A stretch of 64,000 bases of DNA from contig DATLYY010000022.1 in the NCBI GenBank assembly GCA_035574275.1, positions 1 through 64,000 of the forward strand, read 5' to 3'. The position numbers and the translations under genes were made by a program. How positions within the stretch are numbered: position 1 is the first letter of the stretch; every line of letters begins with the position of its first letter. Under the pieces are notes generated by a model. It searched no databases. It was not told the DNA's origin and worked only from the letters and a program-made list of their open reading frames with translations. The stretch comes from Verrucomicrobiia bacterium (GTDB taxonomy: Bacteria; Zixibacteria; MSB-5A5; DSPP01). Below, piece after piece: positions 40,199 to 49,446 of this stretch.

Positions 40199-41263
40199 AT
40201 GGCTAAGACGGCATCAAAAACAGCTGCCCGACGGGAAAGAAAGAAATCACCCCCCTGCGGGCATGCTCTTTTGGCGGAGGTATATCGGGGAGGCGTTGTC
40301 GAATCGAGGCATTTTGGCTCGGTGGCCGTTGTCGACGAGAACGGAAAACTGCGCTATGCCGCCGGAAATCCGCAACTCACCACTTTCTTCCGCTCCGCCT
40401 CCAAGCCGTTCCAGGTTTTGGCGCTGATTGAAGAGGGAGGGGTTGAGCGCTACGGTTTAACGCCGGAGGAGATTGCCATCATGGCGGGGTCGCATTCCGG
40501 CCAGCCGGAGCATGTCGAGGTCATTGACCAAATTTTGGCGAAAGTCGGGATAAGCGAGCCGGATTTACAATGCGGTGTCCAGACACCGCTCTATTTCAGT
40601 TCGCAGAACAGAACTCCGGAAGCGGGTCAGCCATTTGACCAGCGGCATCACAACTGCTCTGGCAAGCATTCGGGAATGATAGCCCTGGCAAAAATTCTTG
40701 GCGAGGATGTTTCCAACTATCTTAATCCCAAAGGCAAGACCCAGCGGCGGATAATGGAAGGGGTGGCGGCGGCGTGCCAGTTCCCCGCCCCACAAATGGC
40801 AGTTTCCACGGACGGTTGTTCGGCCCCCAACCCGGCTGTACCACTTTACCATATGGCATGGGGTTTTGCGCGATTGGCCTCCGCATCCCGACTCAAGGGA
40901 GCTTTTAGCCGGGCGCTGCAAAAAGTGCTGGAGGCGATGCAGCGTTACCCGCTCATGGTTTCGGGAGAAAAAAGGCTGGATTATCTTCTTGCGAAAACCT
41001 TCAATGGCAAGATTGTTGCCAAGGCGGGAGCCGAGGCGGTCGAATGTCTTGGATTGACGGACAGGGGGTGGGGCGTGGCTGTCAAAATTGACGATGGATC
41101 GCAACGAGGAATGGCGCCCGTGGTTTTTTCTGTTTTGAATCAATTGGGATACCGGTTTAATAAAAAAGGGTTGGAGGACTACATTTCCATTCCGCTCAAG
41201 AATTACCGGCAGACCTTGATTGGAAAAATAGAGGCGGCGGTCGAACTTAGCAAAGCAAAATGA
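40199..41263 (+). CDS. L-asparaginase II family protein
   Basis: A 354-residue member of the thermolabile asparaginase II family (Rhizobium-type, PF06089). It has GNPQLTTFFRSASKPFQ, IMAGSHSGQPEHV, the FDQRHHNCSGKHSGMIAL block and VSTDGCSAPNPAVPL, all conserved. Its N-terminal 20 residues are lysine-rich. The ATG lies nine bases after the aminotransferase gene, and the DUF554 gene overlaps its stop by four bases, so the three may form an amino-acid operon. Confidence 0.9.
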   Translation: MAKTASKTAARRERKKSPPCGHALLAEVYRGGVVESRHFGSVAVVDENGKLRYAAGNPQLTTFFRSASKPFQVLALIEEGGVERYGLTPEEIAIMAGSHSGQPEHVEVIDQILAKVGISEPDLQCGVQTPLYFSSQNRTPEAGQPFDQRHHNCSGKHSGMIALAKILGEDVSNYLNPKGKTQRRIMEGVAAACQFPAPQMAVSTDGCSAPNPAVPLYHMAWGFARLASASRLKGAFSRALQKVLEAMQRYPLMVSGEKRLDYLLAKTFNGKIVAKAGAEAVECLGLTDRGWGVAVKIDDGSQRGMAPVVFSVLNQLGYRFNKKGLEDYISIPLKNYRQTLIGKIEAAVELSKAK

Positions 41264-41943
41264 AAGGGACACTCGTAAACACGGCAACCGTGCTTATCGG
41301 GGCCGCCATCGGGTATTTTGCCGGGGCGCGACTGCCGGAGCGGATTCGGACCATTTTAATGCAGGGGCTGGGGCTGGTCACTTTAGTTTTGGGGGTGCGG
41401 ATGATTTTGGCCGCCGAGGGCTCTAATGCCGTGATAAAAGTGGCCGGCGCGTTGCTTCTGGGCGGAATCGCCGGGGAACTTTTGAAAATCGAGCAGGGGC
41501 TGGAGAAAGTTGGGGACTATCTTAAAAATAAGATGCAATCCGAGTCCGCCACCTTCGTTTTGGGTTTCGTTTCCGCCTCACTCCTTTTTTGCGTGGGGCC
41601 GATGACCATTGTCGGTTCCATCGAAGACGGGGTGCGGGGGGACGCCTCGATTCTCTACACCAAATCGATTATGGATGGGGTGGCGGCGGTAGCCCTCGCG
41701 TCCAGTTTGGGGGTGGGAGTGTTCTTTTCGGCCTTGACTGTTTTGATTATCCAAGGCGGGCTGACCCTTTTAGGTGCGCAGCTTTCCGTCTTGTCCGGGT
41801 CAGCGGTTATCAACAACCTGACTTCCACCGGGGGAGCGATGATTCTGGGAATTTCGTTCAAGCTTTTGAACATTGCTGCCGTGCGGGTGGGGAATTTTCT
41901 GCCGGCTCTGGTTCTGGTCGTTTTGTTCTCGCTGTGGTTTTAA
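41260..41943 (+). CDS. DUF554 family membrane protein
   Basis: A 227-residue membrane protein with about six helices. The start MKGTLVNTATVLIGAAIGYFAG and the block FVSASLLFCVGPMTIVGSIEDGVRGD are typical of DUF554 (YdfK-like) proteins, sometimes proposed as transporters. It overlaps the asparaginase gene by ATGA. Function is not established. Confidence 0.9.
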   Translation: MKGTLVNTATVLIGAAIGYFAGARLPERIRTILMQGLGLVTLVLGVRMILAAEGSNAVIKVAGALLLGGIAGELLKIEQGLEKVGDYLKNKMQSESATFVLGFVSASLLFCVGPMTIVGSIEDGVRGDASILYTKSIMDGVAAVALASSLGVGVFFSALTVLIIQGGLTLLGAQLSVLSGSAVINNLTSTGGAMILGISFKLLNIAAVRVGNFLPALVLVVLFSLWF

Positions 41944-41944
41944 A

Positions 41945-41976
41945 GAAAGCCCCGGAGCTGTTCTTCCGGGGCTTTC
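41945..41976. terminator. Bidirectional intrinsic terminator
   Basis: A perfect 12-bp stem (41945-41956 with 41965-41976, GAAAGCCCCGGA/TCCGGGGCTTTC) with an 8-nt loop. It lies between the convergent DUF554 gene and the Cys-rich micro-ORF. T-rich sequence follows on the minus side (TTTCTTT). Confidence 0.8.
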
Positions 41977-41989
41977 CGGTCTGGTTGAT

Positions 41990-42040
41990 TTAGCAACAAG
42001 TACCGCCGCCGCAGCAGCCGGGACCGCAACAATCCTGCAT
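41990..42040 (-). CDS. Cys-rich 16-residue micropeptide (metallothionein-like)
   Basis: The frame encodes MQDCCGPGCCGGGTCC: six cysteines as three CysCys pairs in 16 residues, spaced by GPG- and GGGT-type turns. What marks it as real is the ribosome site: TAAGGAGGTGAT (42046-42057 on the minus strand), a full complement of the 16S rRNA 3' end, 9 nt from GGAGG to ATG. A strong terminator follows 14 bases after the stop, and an operator-like palindrome lies upstream. It is downstream of the arsR gene on the same strand, with 76 bases between. By analogy with smtA I infer a metal- or metalloid-binding role; this is not proven. No family known to me matches. Confidence 0.6.
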   Translation of the reverse strand: MQDCCGPGCCGGGTCC

Positions 42041-42045
42041 CTTTA

Positions 42046-42057
42046 ATCACCTCCTTA
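42046..42057 (-). promoter_or_regulatory. Perfect Shine-Dalgarno of the micro-ORF
   Basis: TAAGGAGGTGAT on the minus strand is fully complementary to the 16S rRNA 3' tail. Most genes in this window have far weaker sites, so this one marks efficient initiation at the ATG ending at 42038. Confidence 0.75.
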
Positions 42058-42078
42058 TACGTTTTACCAATGATTGTT

Positions 42079-42100
42079 ATATGCGCATATATGCATATAT
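42079..42100. promoter_or_regulatory. Palindromic ArsR-type operator before the micro-ORF
   Basis: Two overlapping perfect palindromes, ATATGCGCATAT (42079-42090) and ATATATGCATATAT (42087-42100). The segment ATATGCGCATATAT differs by one base from ATATACGCATATAT upstream of arsR (42461-42474). I infer an ArsR/SmtB-family binding site. Confidence 0.6.
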
Positions 42101-42116
42101 TATTGTAAAAAATTTT

Positions 42117-42446
42117 CTATTTATTTTTCTGCTCTACGAAATCCACCACCGGCTGGCAGCAGGCAAAGCTGGAGAAAAAGCCGACGCAGCAGGCCTTCAA
42201 GTTCGGTTCCGAGAGGCGGTAAAAGACGTTTTGGCCTTTTTTATCCGCGTCCACCAGCCCCGCGTTTTTAAGAACCGCCAGGTGGCGGGAGATGGTGGGC
42301 TGGGAAAGGTTGAAGAAGTCCACGATTTCCGTCACCGAGCGGGGTTTTCCCTCCAGCATCAGCACAATCTTTTGCCGGGTGGGGTCGGAGAGGGCCTTGA
42401 AAACCGGCGCGTAGCGCCGGGCGGTTTGTTCGGCTCTGGCTTTCAT
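42117..42446 (-). CDS. ArsR/SmtB-family metal(loid)-responsive repressor with CC pairs
   Basis: A 109-residue winged-helix repressor. The DNA-reading helix is in TEIVDFFNLSQPTISRHLAVLKNAGLV (about 39-65), and PTRQKIVLMLE and GQNVFYRLSEPNL complete the fold. The C-terminus carries two cysteine pairs, C86-C87 and C96-C97 (KACCVGFFSSFACCQPV), likely the inducer site; CC pairs of this kind bind thiophilic ions such as As(III), Cd or Cu. The start has A/T-rich palindromic DNA upstream and no strong ribosome site. It is expected to repress itself and the micro-ORF until metal binds (inference). Confidence 0.9.
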   Translation of the reverse strand: MKARAEQTARRYAPVFKALSDPTRQKIVLMLEGKPRSVTEIVDFFNLSQPTISRHLAVLKNAGLVDADKKGQNVFYRLSEPNLKACCVGFFSSFACCQPVVDFVEQKNK

Positions 42447-42458
42447 ATTCTTCGATAT

Positions 42459-42476
42459 CTATATACGCATATATCT
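42459..42476. promoter_or_regulatory. Operator-like palindrome upstream of arsR
   Basis: ATATACGCATATAT at 42461-42474 inside a longer A/T-rich imperfect palindrome, about 15 bases before the arsR start. It matches the site at 42079-42092 in 13 of 14 positions. Suggests autoregulation. Confidence 0.55.
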
Positions 42477-42746: not shown

Positions 42747-42838
42747 GGTTTGTCGGCCTGCAACGGGCATCAAAAGGCCGCTTAAAATTGGGAAACATAG
42801 CCGATAGGGCGACAAACCCCTTTTCGGCTTTTTTGTTT
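42747..42838 (+). promoter_or_regulatory. Possible attenuator in the leader of the PorU-like gene
   Basis: Two exclusive structures are visible. AGCCGA (42799-42804) pairs with TCGGCT (42824-42829), helped by GGG/CCC inside, and TTTTTGTTT follows: an intrinsic-terminator shape. GGTTTGTCG (42747-42755) is fully complementary to CGACAAACC (42810-42818), which lies in the terminator loop and would disrupt it. The CGGCC/GGCCG stem lies within. I did not match it to a known riboswitch class. Confidence 0.4.
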
Positions 42839-45800
42839 ATGGGAAAACGACTGACTCTTTTGATCATCACGGCGCTGGCGGCGGGGATTACGCAGGCCGC
42901 GGAATACGAGGATATTGAAATCGTGCGGGCAGATGAAAAAGGGATTTTGTTTGAGTATAAGCCGGCCAATGTGCGGCTGGAATTGGCGGAAGGGTTTGAC
43001 TCAGCCACTACCGGAAAACAGACCAAGAAGCTGGGCATCAGCAATTGTGCCCGGACCGCGGCGAGTGGAGGATACGATTTGCCGGTGCGGGTAGTTCTGA
43101 TTGGGATCCCGCCCGATGCCCGTCCCGAGGTTACGGCTTTGGCCGGCGGAGAAATTGAAGTGGCTGTTTCCAACCCGGCGAAAAACGGCCGGCCGATTGA
43201 CAGAGAAAACCTAATGGCAATGGATAATTACGACTTGAACGAAGAGAGAATGGGTATGGAAAGCCGGGTGATTCCCGACCGGCCGTTCTGGATTGGGAAC
43301 CAACGGGTATTGCGGCTAAAACTGTTTCCGGCCCGGTACGATGAGGCCGCCGGGGTTTACCGGGTGGCCGAAAAACTTCAGGTAGAAGTCCGCATGAATT
43401 CACTGGAACGGTTTGTTTCGAGTTCCACCTCCAACTCTTGGGAAAAGGTTTTGAGAAACGGGGTTTTGAATTACGAACAGGCAAAAGCATTTCGCGGCCG
43501 TCCGGAGGCAAGCGGCAAACTGGCCAAAGCGGCGGCATTCAGTTCTCCATTTGGCCAGTCTTCCAATTGGGTGAAGGTGATTTTTTCAGAAAACGGCATT
43601 TATCGTATCGACCGGAATATGCTTGCTGCGGCAGGTGTGTCCGTTACCTCCATCGACCCTCGCACGATTCGCATGTTCTGCCAAGGAGGGCGGGCACTGC
43701 CGGCGTTCAACAACATTCCCCGCCCCCAATGGCACGAGTTGACGATTGAGGTGGCGGGGGAACAAGACGGCATCTTTGATGCCGGTGATCAAATTCGATT
43801 TTACGGATGGAGTGCGGAGGGGTGGGATTACGACACGCTTAGCGGAGCTTTTTCGTTCGGCAAAAACAATTACACCACCGCGCAGGTTTTTTGGCTGACT
43901 TGGGGTGGAACTTTTGCTGGTTCGGCTTTGCGCGCCGGCAGTCAGGATGTTACACCGACGGGCACGTCACCTGTTGTAACTTCATTTCCGGCCCGTTTTC
44001 ATCTGGAGTCGGACCGACTGCTGGCGACGGACAACTTGGGGGAGATTAGCGACTATTACAACTGGTACGGCGGCAAAGGGACGAACCAATCCTATTTTTT
44101 CAACCTACCGGAAATGGTTGCCGGTTTTGACACGGTTGGAGTGAAACATCTTTCTGCTGGAGTCTCCCTGCGTGTCAATGGAGTTTCAGCTTTCCCCATC
44201 GGCCCCAGTTTGGGCCTTACCCGCTTCGAAACCGGTGCGCTAAAAACGGGTCTGAACCGGGTGGATTTGACGCTTGGAACCATGGGGAACGGATTCAGCC
44301 ATTTTGATTTTCTCGAAGCCCAGTACAGCCGGACGCCGGCATATTCCGCCCCACTTTTTGAGTTTGAGACGCCATCGAGTCCCGGGATGGTGGAATTTCA
44401 AATCGGCGGCTCGCCTGCAAATTTTGTCCTTTGGGACGTGACCAACCGACTCGTTCCCGCCGTTTTAACGGGAGGGGTACGGGACGGTTCGGGGGTTTTG
44501 TCTTTTGATGTGGATGCAACTGCGAAGCGGCTTTTTGTTCTCACCTCAACGGCTGATTACAAGACACCGACTCTTTCCTGGCAGCGACAACCGCCGGTGG
44601 ACTTGACGGTGGCGAACACTCAAGGAGAATTCATCCTCATCGCGCCGGCGGCCTTCCGGTCCGCGCTTTCCGGATATGCCGCCCACCGGGCTTCCGTTAG
44701 CGGGCTTGACGTTCAGCAAATTGATGTGGAGCAGATTTACAACAACTTTTCTGGCGGGTTGCCGGACCCCGTGGCCGTTCGCGACTTTCTCAAATTTGCG
44801 CGGGAGAACTGGAGCGACCCCAAGCCCCGCTTTGTGCTTCTGGCCGGGGACGCGACCTACGATTTCCGCAATATCCTGGGCACTGGAACGGTCAATTTTG
44901 TTCCGCCGTTTATCGTGGATCAGGCCTTTGACGCCTCCAGCAACTCGGACGAGGGTTTTTTGTATTTCGGCAATCCCGGTATCCTGGATTCAGCCGACCA
45001 GTTTCTGGATATGACCATTGCCCGCTGGCCGGTGAAGAACGTTTCCGAATTGCAAATCATAGCGGACAAGATACGCAACTACGAGGCGTCCCCGGAATAT
45101 GGAAATTGGAGAAACCGGGTGACGTTGGTGGCGGATGACGAATTTGCCGGAGCTTCCCAAACGCAGGGATTTCATACCAGCCAGGCGGAGGAGATGGCAA
45201 ACCGGCACCTGCCGTTTGTTTTTGACCGGAATAAGATTTATCTGTTCGACTATCCCTTCGACGGGCTGCGGCACAAACCGGAGGCGGAGGAGGCGATTGT
45301 AAAGGCCTGGAACGAAGGGCATCTTTTGATTGATTACATCGGCCACGGAAACCCGAACGTCTGGGCGCACGAGCGGGTTTTCAAACGGGAGGAGGATGTT
45401 CCCCGTCTGTTTAACGGCGGCAGGCTTCCTTTGGTATATGCCGCTTCCTGTGAAATTAACACCTTTGTCGAACCGCTGGCGGAAGGGATGGGGGAGGATT
45501 TGATGAAAAATCCGAACGGCGGCGCGGTGGCAGTGATTGCCGCCGTGCGGGTGGTTTTTGCCGGGGCCAACACCGATTTGAACAACAAGGTTTTTGATTT
45601 ATTGTTTGCCTCGGATTCCCTTTCCATCGGGGAGGCGTTTTATCTGGCGAAGCTTTTAAGGCAGCCCAATACGAACGACCGGCGCTATCTGCTTTTTGGC
45701 GACCCGGCGATGCATCTGGCCCGGCCGGCGCACAACATCCGGCTGTCCGCACCCGATTCCCTTTCCGCTTTGGAAGTATCCCTTGTTTCCGGCGAAATAA

Positions 45801-46768
45801 CCGACACGGCAGGCAATGTTCTCACCGGCTTCAACGGGACTGTGGCGCTTTCCGTGTTTGACGGGCTGCGCTTCAAATCCCATCCCCTCGCCGGCGCGCC
45901 GGAAATACGGGTGGATTATGCGCTTCCCGGAAACATGATTTACCGGGGGGAAGCCTCCGTGTCGGCCGGAAGCTTTCAATTACAGTTCGTCGTACCCAAG
46001 GACATCGGCTATGGTTCGCGCACCGGGCGAATATCAGCCTATGCCTGGAACAATGCAGGAGATGCCGCCGGGAACCGGGATTCGATCCCCCTTTCCGGTT
46101 CAGCTTTGGCCTCCACCGATACGGCCGGCCCGGCCATCCGGCTGGTCACGGTGGGCGGCGCCTCCCTTAAGCCGGGGGAACCGGTTTCGACCGGGGTCAC
46201 CCTGCGCGTTTTGCTGGAAGATTCGTCCGGGATCAACATCACCGGCGACCCGGCTCATACAATTACGGCAGAATTCGATTTTCCCTCCGGCATTAGTTTC
46301 GATTTGACGGGAATTTTCCGCTACGAAGCCGGTTCCTTCTCCCGGGGTGAGGCCGCTTTCACCGTGCCGGAGCTCCCTGCAGGACCACATACCTTGCGCA
46401 TCAAAGCATGGGACGGGGCCAACAATTCCGCCGTTTTGGAAATGCCGCTGGAAGTGGTCGCCGCGGAAAAACTCAAACTGGCGGGTGTTTTGAACTATCC
46501 CAATCCAATGAAAGATATGACCAATTTCTGCTACACCCTTTCGGCCGCAGCAGATGAGGTCGTCGTTGAAATTTTTTCGCTGGCGGGACGGGCGATACGA
46601 ACCATCCGCTCCACGGCCACCCGAGCCGGCTACAATTTTGACACCACCTGGGACGGACGGGACAACGACGGAGACCGGGTGGCCTCGGGCGTTTACATCT
46701 ATAAAATCCGCGCCCGGCAGGCCTCCAAAGAAACCGAAGAGTTCGGCAAATTAGTAGTCATGCGATGA
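42839..46768 (+). CDS. PorU-like C25 (gingipain-type) cysteine protease with sorting domain
   Basis: A 1,309-residue exported protein. The signal peptide (LTLLIITALAAGITQA) is followed by a long beta-rich region. The C25 catalytic domain (about 690-980) has the histidine in YIGHGNPNVWAHE (H836) and the cysteine in YAASCEINTF (C871), then LLFGDPAMHLA. The C-terminus is a FlgD-like Ig / type IX sorting domain (LNYPNPMKDMTNFCYTLS, VASGVYIYKIRA). In type IX systems PorU is the sortase that cleaves cargo C-terminal signals; the next gene being PorV-like supports this role. The start ATG 42839 has no ribosome site and follows a terminator-like hairpin; TTG 42788 is the alternative. Confidence 0.82.
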   Translation: MGKRLTLLIITALAAGITQAAEYEDIEIVRADEKGILFEYKPANVRLELAEGFDSATTGKQTKKLGISNCARTAASGGYDLPVRVVLIGIPPDARPEVTALAGGEIEVAVSNPAKNGRPIDRENLMAMDNYDLNEERMGMESRVIPDRPFWIGNQRVLRLKLFPARYDEAAGVYRVAEKLQVEVRMNSLERFVSSSTSNSWEKVLRNGVLNYEQAKAFRGRPEASGKLAKAAAFSSPFGQSSNWVKVIFSENGIYRIDRNMLAAAGVSVTSIDPRTIRMFCQGGRALPAFNNIPRPQWHELTIEVAGEQDGIFDAGDQIRFYGWSAEGWDYDTLSGAFSFGKNNYTTAQVFWLTWGGTFAGSALRAGSQDVTPTGTSPVVTSFPARFHLESDRLLATDNLGEISDYYNWYGGKGTNQSYFFNLPEMVAGFDTVGVKHLSAGVSLRVNGVSAFPIGPSLGLTRFETGALKTGLNRVDLTLGTMGNGFSHFDFLEAQYSRTPAYSAPLFEFETPSSPGMVEFQIGGSPANFVLWDVTNRLVPAVLTGGVRDGSGVLSFDVDATAKRLFVLTSTADYKTPTLSWQRQPPVDLTVANTQGEFILIAPAAFRSALSGYAAHRASVSGLDVQQIDVEQIYNNFSGGLPDPVAVRDFLKFARENWSDPKPRFVLLAGDATYDFRNILGTGTVNFVPPFIVDQAFDASSNSDEGFLYFGNPGILDSADQFLDMTIARWPVKNVSELQIIADKIRNYEASPEYGNWRNRVTLVADDEFAGASQTQGFHTSQAEEMANRHLPFVFDRNKIYLFDYPFDGLRHKPEAEEAIVKAWNEGHLLIDYIGHGNPNVWAHERVFKREEDVPRLFNGGRLPLVYAASCEINTFVEPLAEGMGEDLMKNPNGGAVAVIAAVRVVFAGANTDLNNKVFDLLFASDSLSIGEAFYLAKLLRQPNTNDRRYLLFGDPAMHLARPAHNIRLSAPDSLSALEVSLVSGEITDTAGNVLTGFNGTVALSVFDGLRFKSHPLAGAPEIRVDYALPGNMIYRGEASVSAGSFQLQFVVPKDIGYGSRTGRISAYAWNNAGDAAGNRDSIPLSGSALASTDTAGPAIRLVTVGGASLKPGEPVSTGVTLRVLLEDSSGINITGDPAHTITAEFDFPSGISFDLTGIFRYEAGSFSRGEAAFTVPELPAGPHTLRIKAWDGANNSAVLEMPLEVVAAEKLKLAGVLNYPNPMKDMTNFCYTLSAAADEVVVEIFSLAGRAIRTIRSTATRAGYNFDTTWDGRDNDGDRVASGVYIYKIRARQASKETEEFGKLVVMR

Positions 46769-46800
46769 AAATAAAAAGGAAACCAATAAGGGAGGTTTTA

Positions 46801-49446
46801 ATGAAAAGGGTGCTTTTCTTGGGATTGGTCACCACCTTGTCTGTTCTGATGGAAACCCAGACGGTCTGGGCTTCTTTGCGGCAGGCGGGTGCCTTGTCCC
46901 TGCGCATTTCCACCGGAACGCGTCCCGCCGGGATGGGGGATGCCTTTGTCGGGCTGGCGGACGATTATTCGGCGATGCATTTCAATCCCGCGGGATTGGG
47001 ACGCTATCCGATGAGCCCGGACTGGCTTACCTTCCCCCTGCCGAAGGGTGTGGGGCCTATCCGGCAGATTGCGCTATTGCGGAACAATGTGCCGGATATG
47101 AACTACCAGCGCTATGACGTTTGGGTGTTGGCGGGCGATAACCTGTTGCGAATGGAATGGGGCAAGTCCAAAAATACCGATTTTGCGCCCTCGGGCGACG
47201 GTCTGTGGAGCCGCGGCGTTTTGCACGAGGTGCAGGGAAGCGAAACCTTGGAAGGAATCGTTGCCCGGTGGGTGCGGGGCGGAACGGAAGGGGTTTCCCC
47301 GGAACGACTGGCGGAATTGGTTCGCAAGGTGGCGGAAGTGAACAACCGCTTCACCTATCCAGAACTGGTCGGGCTCAAGGATGGCGTGCTCTCGGCCCTG
47401 CCCCCCGATTTTGTCGATTCCGAGAAAGAAAAGCTGGCGGAAGCGTTCGACCGGCTGTTGGAACGCTTTGACAAAGCCCTAATCGTGCCGTCGGGTCTGG
47501 TGGCGCTTCGAACGGCCTCGAATCGGGCGCTTGAGGACCAGAGGATTTCCGTGGAGGAGGCCTCCGGCATTCTGGCGGCCTGCCGGAAAGCTTCGGCCAA
47601 CGCGATGCCGGATCGGGTATTTTTGCCCTACAACCTTGCGTTCAAAGATTCCCTCGTCGCAGTTGCCGGCGATGAGCGGGTTTTGTGGGTGGCTACTAAA
47701 AGCGAAGTTTTCCGTTTTGACGGGGAGAGCTGGAATTCCTACGGCTCCGAACAGGGTCTGCCGGAAGGGCCGTTCCGCTATTTGGCCGTTTCTCCGGCCC
47801 GCACGGTCTGGCTGGCCAATTCCAAGGCCCTTTTTTCCCTTTCCGGAGGCCGCTGGACGATTTCTGACGCCGAGGGGGGATTCCCGGAAGGTGGATTCAA
47901 AAAGATGGTGTTTTCGGGCGAACGGGACGGCTGGGCCATTACCGACAACGACCTGTATTATTACGACGGAAAACGATGGAATAATCGTTATGAGATAACC
48001 GCCGGGGTTTCACCCGAACTGGAAAAACTGATCAGCCAATTTGTGCCGGGGCTCGATTCGACGCGCCTTGCCGAAGCTGTCGCGGAAGTCCGACGGTTGA
48101 ATAATTTGGAGAATTCGGAATTGGCGACCGGTCAGAAAATCTATCTTCCGTACCGCCTTGCCTTTGCTACTCCGTTAACCGCCTTGGCCGTTGACCCTTC
48201 CAAGGTGCTCTGGGTTGGAACGGAAGCGGGGGTCTGGCGTTTTGCCGAAGGGGAGTTTGCCCGCTTCGGGTACCAGCGTTTTACGGTCACCCGGGAGAAA
48301 ACCATCCTCGAGGTGGCCAAAAAATTCACCCGCGATTCCAACCCCCAGCGGTTGGCGCGCTGGATTGAACGGGTCAAAGCATATAACCGGCTGGCCACGG
48401 ACGACGTTTTTCCCGAACAGAAGTTATGGCTGTATTCCGGGCCGGCCGGCAGCCGGATTACCACCCTATACGCAGGTTCTGATGCGGTCTGGATGGGGAC
48501 GGAATTCGGCGTTTTGAAATTCAACAGCAAGGAGTTTGAGCGGTACGAACCGGCCGGGCTGGCGCGGGTGCCGACGGTGGACGCCCAGTTCAAAGGGGCG
48601 GACGGATTTTTCGCCACAGGCGAACAGGTCACCGTTTACGCCCGCCCCTGGCAGCAGGTCGGGTTGATGCATTCCAAATGGCTGCCGGAGCTGGCCGAGG
48701 ACTTGTTTTTCGATGTCCCGGCCTATCTGCGGCATTTTTCAGGAGTCGGCACCTTCGGGTTGCAGGTCACCTTTCTTTCGCTCGGGCGGAATACCCGCAT
48801 TGCCGAGACGGGGGATACGCTCGGTTATTTTGACAGCTTTGAGGGTTCCATCGGGGTCACCTACGGCACCCGCCTTTCGCAGTCGCTGACCGGAGGGGTG
48901 ACCGGAAAGTTTATTTTAAGCAAACTGGCAAGTTCCGGCGCCGGGCGGGAAATCGGGAAGGGGCAGGGGACCTCGTTTGCCCTTGACCTGGGCCTTCTGT
49001 ACAACACTCCTATAAAAAAGCTGACGTTTGGCGCCGCATTGACCAATATCGGGCCGAAACTGCAGTTTATAGACGCTTCGCAGGCGGACCCGCTGCCGCG
49101 CAACCTGGCAATCGGGTTTTCGTATAAACTTATTGAATCGGCCTACAACAAACTCACGCTTTTGGCGGATTTCAACCGAGATTTGGTCAGCCGGGACACC
49201 AGCGAGAGTTTTATGAAATCGGTGTTCGACGAGTCGATTGGGAATTTTGGACTGGAATACTGGTACGGGTCTTATTTCGCCGGCCGGATGGGATACGTGT
49301 ACGACCCGGACGGACAGTTGAAATACATGACCTTGGGAACCAGCTTGCAGTACCGGAATTTTCGGTTTGACCTTGCCTATATCCCCTCCTCCAAAAACTT
49401 GGCCCTGGCCAATACGCTGCGGCTGGCCGTGGTTGGAAGGTTTTAG
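46801..49446 (+). CDS. PorV/PorQ-family outer membrane protein with inserted propeller and LysM-like modules
   Basis: An 881-residue barrel. A signal peptide (VLFLGLVTTLSVLMETQTVWA) precedes the PorV N-terminus (LRISTGTRPAGMGDAFVGLADDYSAMHFNPAGLGR, cited in part). A normal PorV is about 300-400 residues; here about 450 residues are inserted. The insert alternates LysM-like helices with propeller blades of the LWVGTEAGVWRF / VLWVATKSEVFRF kind. The C-terminal half returns to barrel strands (SLTGGVTGKFILSKLAS, GAALTNIGPKLQFID). GGGAGG precedes the ATG at 46801; 46765 is an upstream in-frame start. It is coupled to the PorU-like gene, which fits PorU-PorV cooperation. Confidence 0.8.
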   Translation: MKRVLFLGLVTTLSVLMETQTVWASLRQAGALSLRISTGTRPAGMGDAFVGLADDYSAMHFNPAGLGRYPMSPDWLTFPLPKGVGPIRQIALLRNNVPDMNYQRYDVWVLAGDNLLRMEWGKSKNTDFAPSGDGLWSRGVLHEVQGSETLEGIVARWVRGGTEGVSPERLAELVRKVAEVNNRFTYPELVGLKDGVLSALPPDFVDSEKEKLAEAFDRLLERFDKALIVPSGLVALRTASNRALEDQRISVEEASGILAACRKASANAMPDRVFLPYNLAFKDSLVAVAGDERVLWVATKSEVFRFDGESWNSYGSEQGLPEGPFRYLAVSPARTVWLANSKALFSLSGGRWTISDAEGGFPEGGFKKMVFSGERDGWAITDNDLYYYDGKRWNNRYEITAGVSPELEKLISQFVPGLDSTRLAEAVAEVRRLNNLENSELATGQKIYLPYRLAFATPLTALAVDPSKVLWVGTEAGVWRFAEGEFARFGYQRFTVTREKTILEVAKKFTRDSNPQRLARWIERVKAYNRLATDDVFPEQKLWLYSGPAGSRITTLYAGSDAVWMGTEFGVLKFNSKEFERYEPAGLARVPTVDAQFKGADGFFATGEQVTVYARPWQQVGLMHSKWLPELAEDLFFDVPAYLRHFSGVGTFGLQVTFLSLGRNTRIAETGDTLGYFDSFEGSIGVTYGTRLSQSLTGGVTGKFILSKLASSGAGREIGKGQGTSFALDLGLLYNTPIKKLTFGAALTNIGPKLQFIDASQADPLPRNLAIGFSYKLIESAYNKLTLLADFNRDLVSRDTSESFMKSVFDESIGNFGLEYWYGSYFAGRMGYVYDPDGQLKYMTLGTSLQYRNFRFDLAYIPSSKNLALANTLRLAVVGRF

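Follow-up and report, generated by a model that had tools for sequence, protein, structure and literature searches.

The locus lies in the 64,000-nucleotide stretch of DNA analysed here (the window), taken from a Zixibacterium genome, and consists of two genes on the minus strand, an arsR gene and, 76 nt after it, a gene for a peptide of 16 aa. The unit is closed, with its own signals and no further partner. Its features are listed below, where G001 is the congener Candidatus Zixiibacteriota bacterium PMV_8.32 (locus L094).

41260-41943, plus strand: convergent DUF554 gene (Pfam), abutted by the terminator
41944-41977, minus strand: intrinsic terminator, 13-bp stem and U-rich tail (-27.2 kcal/mol, z = -5.3), closing the transcript before the convergent DUF554 gene
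41990-42040, minus strand: micropeptide gene, MQDCCGPGCCGGGTCC, 16 aa, six Cys in three pairs (CC-x3-CC-x4-CC), ATG at 42040 and TAA at 41990; conserved in G001
42046-42057, minus strand: Shine-Dalgarno (SD) sequence TAAGGAGGTGAT, 11 contiguous bases of which match the host's own 16S tail
42078-42100, minus strand: second operator-like repeat, ATATATGCATATATGCGCATATA, between arsR and the micropeptide gene; conserved in G001
42117-42446, minus strand: arsR, ArsR/SmtB-family repressor of 109 aa with C-terminal C86-C87 and C96-C97 (NCBIfam, Pfam)
42454-42475, minus strand: operator-like AT-rich inverted repeat GATATATGCGTATATAGATATC ahead of arsR, with a counterpart in locus L018

The window neighbours of the unit are genes for DUF554, asparaginase II, an aminotransferase and a C25 peptidase, the last of them upstream and divergent, and no known resistance gene stands beside arsR at this locus. 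The Gingipain-like C25 peptidase (window 42788-46768, plus strand) has FlgD-type and Por-secretion-like C-terminal matches, and a large ORF (46765-49446) comes after its gene. Elsewhere in the same genome, acr3 adjoins an aquaglyceroporin-like gene, away from the window locus, and a second arsR is joined to arsM (L004); arsenic detoxification is thus within the repertoire of the organism.

The arsR product is a member of the ArsR/SmtB family, its winged-helix ArsR domain scoring above the curated cut-offs of NCBIfam NF033788 (90.1 bits, cut-off 55) and Pfam HTH_5 (PF01022; 60.7 bits, cut-off 22). PDB entry 6j05 (named ArsR) matches residues 16-99 with E = 2.3e-4. C86-C87 and C96-C97, spaced CC-x8-CC, are its sole cysteines. 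The type 1 (R773) site Cys32-x-Cys34-x2-Cys37 is absent, with no Cys before C86, and the lack of any His beyond residue 55, and hence in the C-terminal region, means that there is no SmtB-type alpha5 zinc site (Asp/His/Glu ligands). A vicinal Cys pair near the C terminus also features in the type 2 As(III) site of AfArsR (Cys95-Cys96-Cys102; PMC11868830), although that site has the spacing CC-x5-C rather than CC-x8-CC and no micropeptide link is known for AfArsR.

A preliminary description of this DNA had reported the two Cys pairs of ArsR together with the CC-x3-CC-x4-CC frame, and direct reading confirms both. It had also claimed a 12-base perfect match between the SD and the 16S tail; the SD is indeed exceptional, but 12 bases holds only for an E. 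coli-type tail, and with the host's own 16S gene, which ends in ...GGATCACCTCCTTTCT, the perfect match is 11 bases (AAGGAGGTGAT). The longest comparable match among the 31 long ORFs of the window, whose start sites are approximate, is 8, and an exact copy of TAAGGAGGTGAT is found once in the whole window; so strong a ribosome site would be expected to give high output. The terminator claimed in that description is real, with a stem of 13 bp instead of 12. The operator-like palindrome that it placed ahead of the frame lies at 42100-42078 and has a second copy before arsR: ATATATGCRTATAT with up to two mismatches has seven matches in the window, all at the two repeat sites, against 0.12 expected. 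A consensus promoter scan detected no sigma-70 site on the minus strand of the spacer between arsR and the micropeptide gene. The frame itself is unusual for the window, being the sole micro-ORF of 30 aa or fewer with three CC pairs on either strand, and codons for CC-x3-CC occur once, against 0.07 expected.

The same description had pointed to related genomes that keep arsR as the place to look for the Cys-rich frame, and the result favours the finding. In G001, whose arsR is 84% identical, the inner repeat and the SD are kept and a peptide of 16 residues, MKDCCGPGCCGSCCGD, is encoded at the same distance from arsR, with three CC pairs, the third of them shifted, and the same TAA. Between the window and G001 the frame has two base differences in its first 33 nt, and the 3ˊ part differs more, while the sequence downstream of the frame diverges with large gaps. 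These comparisons indicate that the micropeptide gene is very likely real and conserved. The frame is very short and is followed by a terminator, as would suit a chance frame, a regulatory RNA or an attenuator leader peptide. Against such a reading, length, stop and CC pairs are kept while the flank diverges, the SD is the strongest in the window, and the association with arsR recurs in other genomes, so that a frame not translated for its product appears very improbable. The attenuator or leader peptide was rejected outright because no same-strand gene lies downstream and the terminator abuts the convergent DUF554 gene.

This Cys6 form is confined to one genus, with 2 occurrences among 133 genomes of the phylum. 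Downstream of arsR, a small Cys-rich gene with a strong SD is nevertheless present in most members of the ArsR clade concerned, and two families of such genes can be distinguished. Family A (51-71 aa; for example MDKEFGNVKITETDEGYRIDVTGKSLKEACGCGCIPMFISAKGAKMSCCEPGEEKK in L172) was found with a profile in 29 of 131 genomes, mostly 55-100 nt past arsR, the same place as Cys6; its loci include L172, L166, L167, L178 and L180. An AlphaFold model from 24 sequences consists of a beta hairpin followed by a disordered Cys tail at low confidence (pLDDT 61.7). Family B (16-24 aa) has the motif M[KR]R[FY]x[VI]PR[VT]A[HR]CCxG[AS]..., as in MRRFxVPRVAHCCxGA..., and often ends in SRAGH. Its pattern occurs in 24 of 133 genomes and a reversed-pattern control gave 0 matches; the gene stands directly after arsR or after family A, often overlapping the arsR stop, in loci that include L024, L026, L028-L030, L033, L034 and L037. 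Neither family has a Pfam or NCBIfam match.

The ArsR tree, which is built on few columns and has modest support at its deepest forks and an arbitrary root, places the window sequence in a clade of 47 rows in which all but two have a Cys-rich small ORF or arsM as neighbour; the two Cys6 sequences stand beside a clade of family B and arsM loci together with family A and A+B loci. Beyond the 47-row clade, a number of related arsR genes are without a Cys-rich neighbour. The operator-like repeat after arsR also recurs: at family A or Cys6 loci, 23 of 30 such spacers contain ATAT-N3-6-ATAT, where Markov shuffles give 5.0, and the region ahead of arsR contains it in 33 of 71 cases, with 5.7 expected. 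Right after the arsR stop in L166, L167, L171-L180 and L185 there is a recurring T-tract followed by TTGAAAC and ATAT repeats, a stretch in which the small gene may have its promoter and operator. All that ties Cys6 to families A and B is where the genes lie, their SDs, the spacing of the operators and the phylogeny of ArsR, 16 aa being too short for homology or fold tools.

Two further readings can be weighed against these loci. The peptide could be the precursor of a modified product, either a RiPP or an exported metallophore. Its small size would fit, and a radical SAM enzyme gene lies upstream of the arsR-family B pair in L049, yet no maturase, protease or exporter is adjacent in the window, in G001 or at most family B loci, and no maturation enzyme, as expected of a RiPP, is found among the window neighbours of the unit; we regard such a precursor as barely credible. 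Alternatively, the peptide could be what is left, in reduced form, of the Cys motif at the ArsM N terminus (e.g. ...ASCCGSECC...). The arsM gene adjoins several of these arsR genes and replaces the small gene in L022 and L031, fairly close relatives in the ArsR tree, where arsR is immediately followed by an arsM that encodes an N terminus of this kind. This reading remains improbable, however, as no methyltransferase remnant lies downstream in the window and the frame and SD are apparently under constraint. A separate observation in family f16 Zixibacteria is an ORF after arsR in L032:1834-2100 and L035:1834-2100 (also in L064 and L065) with an in-frame TGA in a YCVE-TGA-GY context; it resembles a SelW/Rdx-type selenoprotein in an arsR-arsM locus.

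Small Cys-rich frames of this kind are also present far outside the phylum. A pattern scan of all GTDB species gave 66 loci, most of them out-of-frame chance matches that were set aside, and 11 in-frame short peptides. ArsR was found in the fetched locus of 5 of these 11 peptides as against 0 of the 55 others (Fisher p = 5e-5), and most of the remaining in-frame peptides lie in ars or MerR operons; the search pattern included an SD, so SD strength in its matches is not independent evidence. Actinomycetota and Desulfobacterota have independent CC micropeptides of their own, located in ars or MerR operons. The gene order is arsC-MNTGCCGDGCCDDEQGCC-flavin monooxygenase-arsC in Arthrobacter, arsC-trxB-MNTGCCGDGCCDDDLDCC in Pseudarthrobacter and arsC-MNDGCCGGPCC with a divergent arsR in Rhodoglobus, and an actinomycete MAG encodes MSCCGTDCCDDDGGCC divergently from arsR. 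The Desulfatibacillaceae operon comprises arsC-like genes, arsR, a permease, a thioredoxin-like gene and MPKECCGGKCC, the names of all but arsR having been assigned by inspection. Five Arthrobacter/Paenarthrobacter plasmid ars operons carry a CC micropeptide between trxB and the flavin monooxygenase gene (MTNGCCGDSGCCGEDCC, MTNGCCGDSGCCDDDQDCC, MDTGCCTDTGCCDEDDLDCC, MDTGCCTDTGCCDEDDPDCC and MDTGCCTDTGCC, the last of which has lost the third pair in-frame). The full order in these plasmid loci (L218, L219, L220, L221 and L226) is arsR-arsC-trxB-[micropeptide]-flavin monooxygenase-arsC. The plasmid micropeptides are missing from the gene tables shown, which are incomplete by design, and annotated genes flank their frames on both sides. 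The actinobacterial form is uncommon: in a sample of 151 genomes from one family it turned up once, in the query genome itself. MerR-family regulators precede the Actinophytocola oryzae and Amycolatopsis peptides, and a check upheld the MerR link at L210 and L211 but not at L209. A CopZ-like HMA-domain ORF with a possible N-terminal CCGSGCCGG extension was seen in a CsoR-type copper operon of Sinomonas (L216).

The inference of a minimal metal(loid)-related module missed by gene callers, drawn in the preliminary description, is thereby strengthened by conservation in the congener, by the Cys-rich genes throughout the clade and by the CC micropeptides of other phyla. The Cys6 peptide is part of a larger, unannotated group of tiny CC peptides tied to metal or arsenic regulators in several phyla, and this group suggests that cells produce very small peptides, overlooked by gene callers, that bind metals or arsenic. 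The likeness among the Cys6, family A, family B and actinobacterial peptides may reflect analogy and not common descent.

The effector might also be a metal other than arsenic, namely Cd, Zn, Cu(I) or Hg, in which case the peptide would be a true minimal metallothionein. ArsR-family sensors with C-terminal Cys differ in metal, the Actinophytocola oryzae and Amycolatopsis micropeptides follow MerR-family regulators, and the related extension in Sinomonas precedes a CopZ-like domain; on the other side, the neighbours that keep recurring, within the phylum and outside it, are arsM, arsC or flavin monooxygenase genes, and no metal ATPase gene lies beside the Zixibacteria loci inspected. We therefore consider another metal somewhat unlikely and arsenic the most likely effector, other soft metals remaining candidates. 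The MerR-linked actinomycete peptides suggest that the element serves more than one metal.

The preliminary description had taken the smtB-smtA pair as precedent, and this holds as a functional analogy. Like SmtB-SmtA of Synechococcus and AzuR-NmtA of Anabaena, the unit ties an ArsR/SmtB-family repressor to a Cys-rich product that is a putative metal binder. The two cyanobacterial systems are arranged differently, smtA and smtB being divergent and about 100 bp apart and nmtA lying outside an operon with its regulator (PMC8790569). The genes of the window are in tandem and not a divergon, the peptide consists of 16 aa with Cys only as CC pairs, and the Cys of its ArsR are C-terminal only, with no alpha5 site. 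SmtA has about 56 aa. Two Cys6 16-mers, joined for length, had no match to a metallothionein model in Pfam or NCBIfam, nor had family A or family B, and scans of the peptides gave insignificant matches only. The micropeptide is not an SmtA homologue and the unit, alike in outline, falls outside smtB-smtA membership because arrangement, size, sequence and sensor site differ. There is a likeness, too, to ArsR-ArsM operons such as ArarsRMC of Arsenicibacter rosenii (PMC11868830), since arsM follows the orthologous arsR in several relatives, but arsM is absent from the window locus and the micropeptide takes its place. A search of open-access full text found no precedent for an arsenic micropeptide.

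ArsD offers another parallel, with vicinal Cys pairs, an ars-operon setting and similar tails such as SACCATDSTTCC. ArsD, however, is a folded protein of about 120 aa and the micropeptide a bare Cys-pair element; the 16-aa peptide has no ArsD family match in Pfam or NCBIfam and no folded domain with C12-C13-C18. Like the vicinal-Cys parts of ArsD, the peptide could be a regulatory or delivery factor and not a sink, carrying As(III) to or from ArsR, Acr3 or ArsM. There is a resemblance between its CC pairs and the tails at the C terminus of plasmid ArsD (...SACCATDSTTCC), and in ArsD the pairs C112-113 and C119-120, counterparts of the plasmid tail pairs, are implicated in metalloid-responsive regulation (PMC4562236). 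One or few sites per peptide would allow little storage, and the conserved non-Cys part of family B (PRVAHCC) suggests a binding partner. The Cys6 form, by contrast, is almost without non-Cys residues for specificity, and its strong SD suggests abundance, which makes a delivery role unlikely.

We propose that the product is likely a metal(loid)-binding micropeptide under ArsR control, and specifically, with a probability of roughly 0.6, an ArsR-derepressed vicinal-dithiol peptide. As a minimal counterpart of a metallothionein, or of the tail of ArsD, it would bind and buffer As(III) or some other soft metal. In ArsD and AfArsR, vicinal Cys pairs serve to sense or bind As(III) (PMC4562236, PMC11868830). 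In the following scheme we infer that ArsR binds the repeats and that an internal promoter exists, as well as translation, the identity of the metal, chelation and buffering. In the resting state ArsR would repress its own promoter and an internal start ahead of the micropeptide gene. As(III) or another soft thiophilic metal would bind the C-terminal Cys pairs of ArsR, which would then leave both repeats, and the efficiently initiated mRNA would yield the 16-residue peptide. Its three Cys pairs would chelate the cytosolic metal(loid) and buffer it until Acr3 or ArsM, encoded elsewhere, acts; chelation by the peptide may also reset ArsR.

To our knowledge, the metal-regulated thiol peptides of bacteria are proteins of at least about 50 residues or small molecules made by enzymes. 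If the proposal is true, the size limit for metallothionein-like genes would be lowered by a ribosomal peptide of 16 residues that an arsenic-type repressor controls, and ars operons, those of conjugative plasmids included, would hold overlooked genes. The signature of a strong SD, CC-x3-4-CC and a regulator neighbour is searchable in all genomes. The chief interest lies in the CC micropeptides of metal regulons as a broader class that has escaped annotation. Tentatively, and at a little under even odds, we suggest that vicinal-Cys micropeptides of 11-24 residues, under ArsR or MerR control across three phyla or more, are widespread, convergently evolved and systematically unannotated in arsenic and metal regulons, alongside the unnamed families A and B of Zixibacteria, and that they may be among the smallest genetically encoded metal-binding peptides.
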